Source: Eggerthella lenta DSM 2243 (GTDB lineage Bacteria > Actinomycetota > Coriobacteriia > Coriobacteriales > Eggerthellaceae). From it: a stretch of 64,000 nt of DNA. Below, one piece after another: positions 21,342 to 37,897 of this stretch. The notes below the pieces were generated by a model, which was not told where the DNA came from, ran no database searches, and saw only the letters and a list, made by a program, of their open reading frames with translations. Position numbers and translations under genes: made by a program. The stretch lies in contig NC_013204.1 of assembly GCF_000024265.1 (NCBI RefSeq), positions 2,422,501-2,486,500 on the forward strand, read 5' to 3'. The first letter of the stretch is position 1, and every line of letters starts with the position of its first letter.

Positions 21342-22301
21342 CTACGCCGGGAACAGCGTGTAGGCCCGTCCCTCGGCGGCCTCGTGCGGACGGATGCTCA
21401 CGCCGAAGGCCCGCTCGATGGCGCCGGTTGCGAGCACCTCTTCCACCGTGCCGGCCGCCGCGGCGCGCCCGCGTTCCATGACCAGCAAACGGTCTGAGTA
21501 GCGCAGCGCCAGGTCGAGATCGTGGATGACCATGACGATGGTCTTGCCCGCCTCCTCGTTCAAGCGGCGGATCAGCTCCATCGTCTCGTGGCAGGCGCGG
21601 ATGTCGAGGTAGGTGGTGGGCTCGTCGAGCACGATGAGGTCGGTGTCCTGCGCCAACGTCATGGCGATGAACGCTCGCTGGCGCTCGCCGCCCGACAGCC
21701 GCCTCAGCTCCTGCGTCCGGAACCGCGCGATGCCCGCAAGCTCGAGGGCGCGCTCCACGTGCTCGCGATCCTCGCGCGAGAGCTTCCCCTGATGCGCCTG
21801 GTACGGATAGCGCCCGCATGCTACGAGCGCCTCCACCGTCATCGCCGGCGGGCGGCTGGCCTGGGCCAGCACGGCCACGCGACGGGCGCGCGCCTTCGCC
21901 TTGAGCGACAGCGTGGGCACCCCGCCGACGCGCACCTCCCCCGCCTGCGGCCGCAGCAAGCCGTCGACGAGTTTGACCATCGTGGACTTCCCGCAGCCGT
22001 TCGGGCCGACGATGCTGGTCACCGCCCCATGCGAAAACATCGCGGAAAGCCCCCCGATGAACGGTTCCTTGCCGTAGGAGAACGACACCTCGCGAAGCTC
22101 GATGGCAGGAACACAGGGCTGCGCGACCTCTGCGGTCGAGGAGCCGAGGGCCGAGAGGTCCGCCGCGAGTTTCCCCGAGGGGACTTGCTTCGCGGTGCCG
22201 CGACGAGCCGAACAGCCCAGCGGGCTGTTCGTGCGAGCAGGACTGTTTGAGCGCCGGACCTCTCGGCCCTCGGCCCCGCAGGATGCAGGCGCATTATTCA
22301 A
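21342..22301 (-). CDS. ABC transporter ATP-binding protein, iron/heme/cobalamin type, with repeat-derived N-terminal extension
   Basis: The 319-residue protein has a FecE/BtuD-like ATPase domain from about residue 65. Its Walker A is GPNGCGKST, the Q-loop region is AVLAQASRPPA, the signature is LSGGERQR and Walker B is LIVLDEPT followed by the H-loop VIHDLD. The first approximately 64 residues are not part of the fold. Residues 10-53 are encoded by a 132-nt palindromic repeat (22143-22274), exactly 44 codons. The ATG at 22301 has AGGAGGGG upstream and overlaps the permease stop by 8 nt; no alternative ATG or GTG lies just before the domain. It energises import with the adjacent permease and binding protein. 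Confidence 0.85.
   Translation of the reverse strand: MNNAPASCGAEGREVRRSNSPARTNSPLGCSARRGTAKQVPSGKLAADLSALGSSTAEVAQPCVPAIELREVSFSYGKEPFIGGLSAMFSHGAVTSIVGPNGCGKSTMVKLVDGLLRPQAGEVRVGGVPTLSLKAKARARRVAVLAQASRPPAMTVEALVACGRYPYQAHQGKLSREDREHVERALELAGIARFRTQELRRLSGGERQRAFIAMTLAQDTDLIVLDEPTTYLDIRACHETMELIRRLNEEAGKTIVMVIHDLDLALRYSDRLLVMERGRAAAAGTVEEVLATGAIERAFGVSIRPHEAAEGRAYTLFPA
22143..22274 (-). repeat. Palindromic structured repeat, family B, copy 1 (inside the ABC ATPase ORF)
   Basis: Arms of 20 nt (22143-22162 and 22255-22274, GCCGAGGG...GGTCCG) are perfectly complementary. The interior holds a second perfect 10-bp hairpin, CGAACAGCCC/GGGCTGTTCG (22209-22231). Core boundary sequences GCGAGTT and AGGACTGTTTGAGCG are shared with the copy at 37791-37897. 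The element length of 132 nt keeps the reading frame open. Confidence 0.75.
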
Positions 22302-23301
22302 GGCTTCCCCTCCTGTTCTTCAAGATGAGGTAGATGAAGAAGGGGCCGCCGAGGAACGCCATGAGGATGCCCACCGGCACCTCGTAGGGTGCGAACAGCA
22401 CGCGCGCCAGCAGGTCGCACACGACGACGAACGCCGCGCCCGACACGGCCGACAACGGCAGCACGATGCGGTTGTCGTGCCCGACGAAGAACCGCACGAG
22501 GTGCGGGATGATGAGCCCTACGAACCCCAGCAGGCCCGCGAAGCTGACGGCCGCGCCCGCCAGCACGGCGGCGAGGCCCAGCATGGCCAGCCGGCACGCG
22601 CCCACGTTCATGCCCAGCGCATGGGCCGTGTCGTCGCCGAGCGCCATGATGTTCAGCTTGCCCGCCGCAAGCAGAGCCGCGGCGAGGCCTGCCACGATGT
22701 AAACGGCGGGCCACCACAGGTCGTCCATGAGCACGCCGGCCAAACCGCCCACGAGGAACGCCGACGAGCCGATGTAGGCGTCGGGGTTCACGATGAGGAT
22801 GGTGTTCATGCCCGCACCGAACACCGACGTGATGGCGATGCCCGCCAGCACCACGGTGAGCCTCGACGTGCTGGCGCCCAGCGAGATGCCGAAGATGATG
22901 AGCGCCGTGGCCAACGCGCCCGCAAATGCCGCGAGCGGCGGCAGCCAGAGCGCGCTGGGAAACACGCTGGCGGCGATCAGCACGAACAGCCCGGCGCCCG
23001 AGTTGATGCCGATGATGTTGGGGCTTGCCAGCGGGTTGTCCAGCACGGCCTGGATGATGGCGCCCGCCACGGCCAGCGCGCCTCCTGCCAGAAGCGCCGC
23101 CAGCACGCGCGGCAGGCGCACGTTCACGAGGATGCTCTTCGCCGACGCGCTCACGTCGCCGCCCGTGGCCCAGGCGACAAGATCGCCCAGGCTCACCGAC
23201 GACGACCCCACGAGGAAGGCCGCCGCCGTCACCGCCGCCAGGACGGAGGCGGATACGGCGATTGCGAGCGGTGCGGCCTTTTCACGGTTGAACGAAGTCA
23301 C
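22294..23301 (-). CDS. FecCD/BtuC-family ABC transporter permease
   Basis: This 335-residue integral membrane protein has about ten hydrophobic segments and the family landmarks. These are RLPRVLAALLAGGALAVAGA, NPLASPNIIGINSGAGL, LGDDTAHALGMNV and VSFAGLLGFVGLIIPHLVRF. FecCD permeases move ferric siderophores, heme or cobalamin across the cytoplasmic membrane. It lies 15 bp behind the binding protein and overlaps the ATPase gene, forming a standard three-gene importer. The substrate is not determined; proximity to heme genes suggests iron or a tetrapyrrole. Confidence 0.9.
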   Translation of the reverse strand: MTSFNREKAAPLAIAVSASVLAAVTAAAFLVGSSSVSLGDLVAWATGGDVSASAKSILVNVRLPRVLAALLAGGALAVAGAIIQAVLDNPLASPNIIGINSGAGLFVLIAASVFPSALWLPPLAAFAGALATALIIFGISLGASTSRLTVVLAGIAITSVFGAGMNTILIVNPDAYIGSSAFLVGGLAGVLMDDLWWPAVYIVAGLAAALLAAGKLNIMALGDDTAHALGMNVGACRLAMLGLAAVLAGAAVSFAGLLGFVGLIIPHLVRFFVGHDNRIVLPLSAVSGAAFVVVCDLLARVLFAPYEVPVGILMAFLGGPFFIYLILKNRRGSLE

Positions 23302-37690: not shown

Positions 37691-37698
37691 GCCGCACG

Positions 37699-37790: not shown

Positions 37791-37897
37791 GTGCCGAGGG
37801 GGCGAAGGCGGCGGGGCGTCTCACCAAGCGAGTTCCGCAGCAAAGCGAGGACTGTCTGAGCGACTGAGATGCCCCGCCGCCTTCGCCCCCTCGGCAC
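37791..37897. repeat. Palindromic structured repeat, family B, copy 2
   Basis: Two 33-nt arms (37791-37823 and 37865-37897) are complementary with a single mismatch. They enclose a 41-nt core that contains GCGAGTTCCGC and GAGGACTGTCTGAGCG. The core edges match the copy at 22143-22274 (AGGACTGTTTGAGCG), whereas the arms differ in sequence and length but remain self-complementary. It lies 15 bp past the ftsQ stop between convergent genes. Confidence 0.8.

Follow-up and report, generated by a model that had tools for sequence, protein, structure and literature searches.

Why a palindrome of 132 nt lies in frame within the gene for a transporter ATPase, and what it does to the protein, is the question raised by a locus of Eggerthella lenta DSM 2243 within a stretch of 64,000 nucleotides (the window). 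The host gene (21342-22301, minus strand) is a 319-codon ORF with a TTG start that encodes a FecE-type ABC transporter ATPase, and the upstream gene for a FecCD permease (22294-23301, minus strand) overlaps this start. The palindromic element (22143-22274, minus strand), which consists of two arms and a core, occupies codons 10-53 of the 319. We interpret it as one copy of a family of short, apparently non-autonomous palindromic mobile elements of Coriobacteriia, a reading which, together with our best explanation as a whole, we hold with a probability of roughly 80%.

Structure and translation of the ATPase insert

In the sense of the ATPase gene, the 5' arm (22255-22274, minus strand) is G-rich, locus-specific and perfect over 20 nt, and it pairs with the 3' arm (22143-22162, minus strand). 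The core between them (22163-22254, minus strand) contains the conserved half-sites, an inner 10-bp hairpin (CGAACAGCCC-AGC-GGGCTGTTCG; 22209-22231, no strand assigned, from sequence and fold) and an extra TCCCC/GGGGA hairpin like that of the long core variant. Followed beyond the perfect arms, the outer pairing covers 27 nt at 93% (22140-22166 with 22251-22277). The fold of the element strand had a z-score of -8.3, and none of 200 shuffled sequences was equally stable; a chance palindrome was ruled out by this score together with the family of copies described below. An earlier note on this DNA, made from the letters alone, had reported the perfect arms, the inner hairpin and the in-frame position, all of which the sequence bears out. 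The 132-nt element that it described is real, although it is not a single oddity, since it is one of a large family.

The same note had named an ATG above the element as the start codon. The ATG there belongs to an ORF in another frame (22019-22294), and the in-frame start is the TTG at 22299-22301, upstream of the element. The ATPase frame lacks any ATG, GTG or TTG between codons 1 and 72, and a CTG is found at codon 28, within the element. In a mechanical search, a TTG at the same permease/ATPase junction was the first ATG, GTG or TTG of the ATPase frame in 18 of 21 orthologues. An AlphaFold2 model predicted that residues 1-59 are disordered, that the first strand begins at residue 67 and that the fold is confident from about this residue, with codon 72, the next usual start codon, falling inside the first strand. 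The note had placed the start of the ATPase fold near residue 65; the ABC_tran domain begins at residue 85. According to the model, the insert occupies a permissive tail. Since there is no usual start until codon 72 and the TTG stands at the junction, the insert must be translated, barring bypass or an unusual start codon, and the ATPase is accordingly expected to be translated through the element.

Copies, anatomy and insertion into genes

Diverged copies were first found by a DNA search of the E. lenta genome itself (3.63 Mb, one contig) and then with a covariance model of the core, which gave 28 places at E<=0.01. Another place (L059, E 0.25) was accepted as a copy by its arms, so that 29 copies were inspected; a 30th place, at 2152517, lies outside this set. 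Among the genomes of the host's family, 74 of 119 (E. lenta included) had matches, with as many as 39 in a single genome; 28 of 48 genera were represented, and these family-wide counts are lower bounds because stricter filters apply above 40 genomes. An exact core pattern was also run against a genome collection, where the 80 matches listed included Collinsella, Enorma, Tractidigestivibacter, Gordonibacter, Adlercreutzia, Paraeggerthella, Ellagibacter, Slackia, Enterorhabdus and similar genera, a few actinobacterial MAGs, and one MAG labelled Corynebacterium, which we suspect to be mislabelled. The window itself holds a second copy (37791-37897, plus strand) with 33-nt arms and a 41-nt core; it lies between two convergent ORFs, which we take from their translations to be sufS-like and ftsQ-like. 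Among the titles and abstracts listed in searches of open-access literature, which leaves subscription papers mostly outside, none reported such an element in Eggerthellaceae or Collinsella, and passages of PMC7771070, which names Collinsella and palindromes, contain none either.

The core consists of two half-sites around optional inner hairpins, which account for the difference between variants of 41, about 68, 84 (the ATPase copy) and about 110 nt. The inner hairpin covaries in other copies. The outer arms, in contrast to the conserved core, are locus-specific and complementary within each copy: cores of 41 nt are identical in L052-L055 while the arm sequences differ. Arm statistics were taken from 105 copies, reduced to 87 after duplicate or low-scoring ones were dropped, and arm inspection covered all but the short loci L061, L079 and L080. 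The arms are mostly 15-40 bp long, with a mean of 24 bp and 91% Watson-Crick pairs in the 87 distinct copies; they reach 40 perfect base pairs in Collinsella (L319) and are short or weak in two relatives (L077, 11 nt; L087, 9 nt). G exceeded C in the 5' arm of 83 of the 87 copies, with the reverse in 2, and the same bias was seen, 58 to 4, among the 68 distinct copies in the matches listed from the collection scan, a set that partly overlaps the 87. A CAGGTTGAA-like motif lies directly outside one arm in many copies, and CAGGATGCA beside the ATPase copy (22279-22287, plus strand) is possibly a diverged form of it; both were noted without a statistical count.

Some loci were composite or carried other repeats. 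At L050 (about 2689790 of the E. lenta genome), one element apparently lies within the core of another, itself with possible remnants of a third on its sides. At the ATPase start of genome G104 (L261), an element of the E. lenta subtype with different arms seems to be split by a second element, which belongs to another subtype. From position 37698 of the window onward there is a different short repeat (GGGATCCTTCGACTC...GCTCAGGATGAC), which has more copies in the genus; in G041, G093, G095 and G111, the ATPase N-terminus consists in part of the peptide that this repeat encodes (like VILSGARSAESKDP).

The earlier note had compared the insert with the protein-coding palindromic elements of Rickettsia, and the search for further in-frame copies that it suggested was successful. 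Nine of the 29 inspected copies lie in frame within Pfam-recognised genes, namely those for a HisH-type GATase, a DUF1385 protein, an M18 peptidase, the ATPase, dihydroorotate dehydrogenase (pyrD), a GNAT/TsaD fusion, an ABC permease, a GatA-like amidase (gatA) and a FabD-like acyltransferase (fabD). They occur in both orientations and in several phases. Across these nine copies, 47 of the 54 reading frames through the element are free of stops, and the host frame is open in all nine genes. Because the element is open in most frames, an insertion that keeps the frame and leaves the fold intact can persist, adding a segment to the host protein. For 13 of the remaining 20 copies, Pfam scans of at least one ORF spanning the element gave no match. 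Insertion takes place at many positions, mostly outside genes that could be identified, and within genes at permissive ones (N-terminus, C-terminus or loop).

Orthologues without the element were found for the ATPase and fabD genes, which supports the likeness to the Rickettsia elements. The alternative that all ATPase orthologues carry the same extension fails, as 24 of the 29 readable ones (L275, which has no Walker A, being excluded) lack the core motif, among them the congeners G070, G093 and G031; the five with the motif (E. lenta, G036, G104, G007 and G053) belong to four genera. At fabD, the sequence of G070 is contiguous where E. lenta carries 90 additional nt that include both arms; no target-site duplication was obvious there, and few sites offered a clean empty state for inspection. 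At hisH, the element motif was present in 14 of 29 readable loci, always in the same loop, 10 forward and 4 reverse; these loci are the best 30 of 97 matching genomes, a choice that favours carriers, and the count leaves L232 unread, although the copy L063 of the same genome does carry the element. The HisH loop of G104 contains two elements in tandem. As this loop is occupied in both orientations, insertion has recurred. At some sites, including hisH, several genera share an element with related arms, which would also fit a retained function.

Covariation of the arms and its possible mechanism

The most unusual property of the family, which a reader of the letters alone could not see, is that the arms of orthologous copies covary. 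In one orthologous hisH insertion represented by seven sequences from five genera, 98.7% of 154 cells in the arms were paired and 2 were unpaired. Eleven of the 22 arm pairs were doubly changed, compared with 4.5 in shuffles, none of which (0/500) reached this number; the count of further pair types was less extreme (8/500 shuffles). Sliding the partner arm reduced the pairing to 35-50%. With the inner hairpin included, 15 of 31 pairs were doubly changed. The shuffles ignore the relatedness of the sequences, whereas the sliding control keeps it, and since the structure was read from the same, related sequences, both controls lean its way.

The comparison between E. lenta and G070 gave a similar picture at eight shared sites. 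Arm identity was 62-82%, and the arms within each genome pair at 18-27 of 22-29 positions, whereas arms crossed between the two genomes (five sites, without gaps) pair at 9-17 of 22-24. Cores were compared at six of the eight sites and were 95-98% identical at L052, L053 and L056, versus 41-68% at L031, L034 and L038, partly because of length variants, so that replacement or re-insertion may explain some of the arm differences.

A Collinsella intergenic site provided a third case, in which 20 genomes (L411-L430) fall into the alternative whole-arm haplotypes T1 (8), T2 (5) and X (7). State X has a T1 hairpin followed by an unpaired remnant that retains most of the T2 3' arm; it matches the outermost 20 nt of that arm exactly in 5 of 7 cases, while L424 and L427 each differ by one change. 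Hairpins were perfect in 14 of the 19 measured and had one mismatch in the other 5 (L423, which was read separately, and L431 are outside this measurement). Trees of the upstream and downstream flanks disagree, which indicates that recombination is heavy and that haplotypes are also shuffled. Among ten more distant loci, the core was absent from the upstream region in all 7 where this region was readable.

These observations suggest an element whose arm sequence is free while complementarity is kept and the core is conserved. The arms may be kept matched by hairpin-templated copying from one arm to the other (a template switch during replication), by selection for pairing, or by both. PMC8794818 and PMC6649704 propose that template switching uses one arm to rewrite its partner, and the former describes how, in hairpin-templated mutation or quasipalindrome correction, block changes rewrite one arm and keep stems perfect. 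The coordinated block and indel changes are most simply explained by template switching at the hairpin. Pairing may also be under selection, and the mismatches of wobble type point partly to this: G-T outnumbers A-C by 34 to 9 on one strand in the 87 copies left after removal of duplicate or low-scoring ones, an excess that hints at selection on RNA. Orthologous copies whose arms have changed yet still match provide many natural replicates for the question of how long hairpins stay perfect, whether by compensatory selection or by the templating of one arm by the other.

Movement of the element would depend on some enzyme of the host or of a mobile element; no such enzyme was found, whether of the element itself or from elsewhere. 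No match to the Y1 transposase (PF01797) was found in the E. lenta genome. Over 119 genomes, the mean copy number was 7.2 with and 7.7 without Y1 (p = 0.60; duplicate or low-scoring copies dropped, to 91), and Y1 was absent from 11 of the 18 genomes with >=20 copies. The sole reverse-transcriptase match (PF00078) of the E. lenta genome is located at L180 (3065234). A larger autonomous element was also considered and rejected, because core halves in this genome fall in known copies, including a right half at 2152583 in the 30th copy, save for left halves with 1 mismatch at 1245833 and 2461661, for which a reversed control pattern gave 5 matches, and a right half with 2 mismatches at 1098331. 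We tentatively suggest, as a speculative extension, that only the core is recognised, that the arms have no fixed sequence and are rewritten as matched pairs to give a haplotype for each locus, and that the element may move via a single-stranded intermediate; a one-strand intermediate of RNA or ssDNA is hinted at by the 34:9 bias. If this is true, the family would be a palindromic transposon of a new kind, and it would offer a natural setting in which to study how arms are copied from each other within living genes.

Alternative explanations and comparison with known systems

The palindrome could instead be a functional RNA structure under selection (a REP-like mRNA stabiliser, processing site, attenuator or terminator) that would set the ratio of ATPase to permease, much as the earlier note had suggested that the structure might throttle translation. 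Such a function would account for the conservation of the core and for the compensatory changes, and the strong arm covariation, the one-strand mismatch bias and the sites shared by several genera with related arms are in its favour. However, it fits poorly with the 24 ATPase orthologues without the core motif and with the occurrence of both orientations in the same gene and of several frames in unrelated genes. Moreover, no Rfam family reached its cut-off on the element at ten loci, where two weak overlaps, MIR1151 (32.6 of 90 bits) and mir-H20 (29.5 of 99 bits), stayed far below it and the sole match above it was RNase P in the flank of L071. We therefore regard a functional RNA as an unlikely explanation, though one to be taken seriously. 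We consider it improbable that the segment is left untranslated, by ribosome bypass or by a start after the element: bypassed palindromes are known from Magnusiomyces mitochondrial genes (PMC6649704) and the protein would not need its predicted disordered residues, but the lack of an ATG, GTG or TTG from codon 2 until codon 72, the junction TTG of the orthologues and the open frame in all nine host genes argue against it.

Two further explanations concern the origin of the copies. That the arms were copied from the insertion target, as an inverted target duplication made each time, was our first idea, in keeping with the different arms around the identical cores of L052-L055. It was weakened by the empty fabD site of G070, a contiguous sequence from which both arms are missing, and by the covarying orthologues, since the arms are no longer the same among orthologues of a single hisH insertion, and it now seems improbable. 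Least of all do we expect a REP/REPIN-type repeat moved by a RAYT (a Y1 tyrosine transposase). Short palindromes with a CAGGTTGAA-like motif beside one arm are reminiscent of such repeats, and REPs are also found in genes according to PMC3733652, but the same paper gives REP stems of 5-13 bp, compared with about 24 bp here, the E. lenta genome has no Y1 match, and Y1 is not associated with copy number over the 119 genomes. A family of mobile palindromic elements is the reading that we prefer, and in comparison with REP/REPIN systems, which likewise consist of dispersed and sometimes intragenic palindromes (PMC3733652), it has longer stems and a core of its own.

The terminal repeats of MITEs are conserved between copies. 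The outer arms of the present family, by contrast, are locus-specific and differ between copies, and no target-site duplication was obvious at fabD. The resemblance to MITEs such as ERIC, RU and QMITE (PMC10969869) lies in small size, the lack of an own transposition gene, and an occasional intragenic position with in-frame fusions. With regard to template switching, PMC8794818 proposes it for RNA genes and calls the evidence for stem maintenance circumstantial, whereas the stems considered here belong to a dispersed mobile repeat.

The closest counterpart in behaviour is the Rickettsia palindromic elements, which are about 150 bp long and are likewise dispersed palindromes lying in frame in unrelated genes (PMC10969869; see also PMC6649704). 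The present family agrees with them in its dispersal (29 copies inspected) and in its in-frame position in unrelated genes (9 of 29) whose orthologues may lack it, as at the ATPase and fabD. Their host belongs to a different bacterial class, and the likeness is one of behaviour. Our best reading, by analogy, is that these elements form a new family of mobile, protein-coding palindromes which work like those of Rickettsia, from which protein-coding palindromes are best known; here the family extends across common human-gut Coriobacteriia (Eggerthella, Gordonibacter, Adlercreutzia and Collinsella), and its members sit in frame in enzyme and transporter genes.
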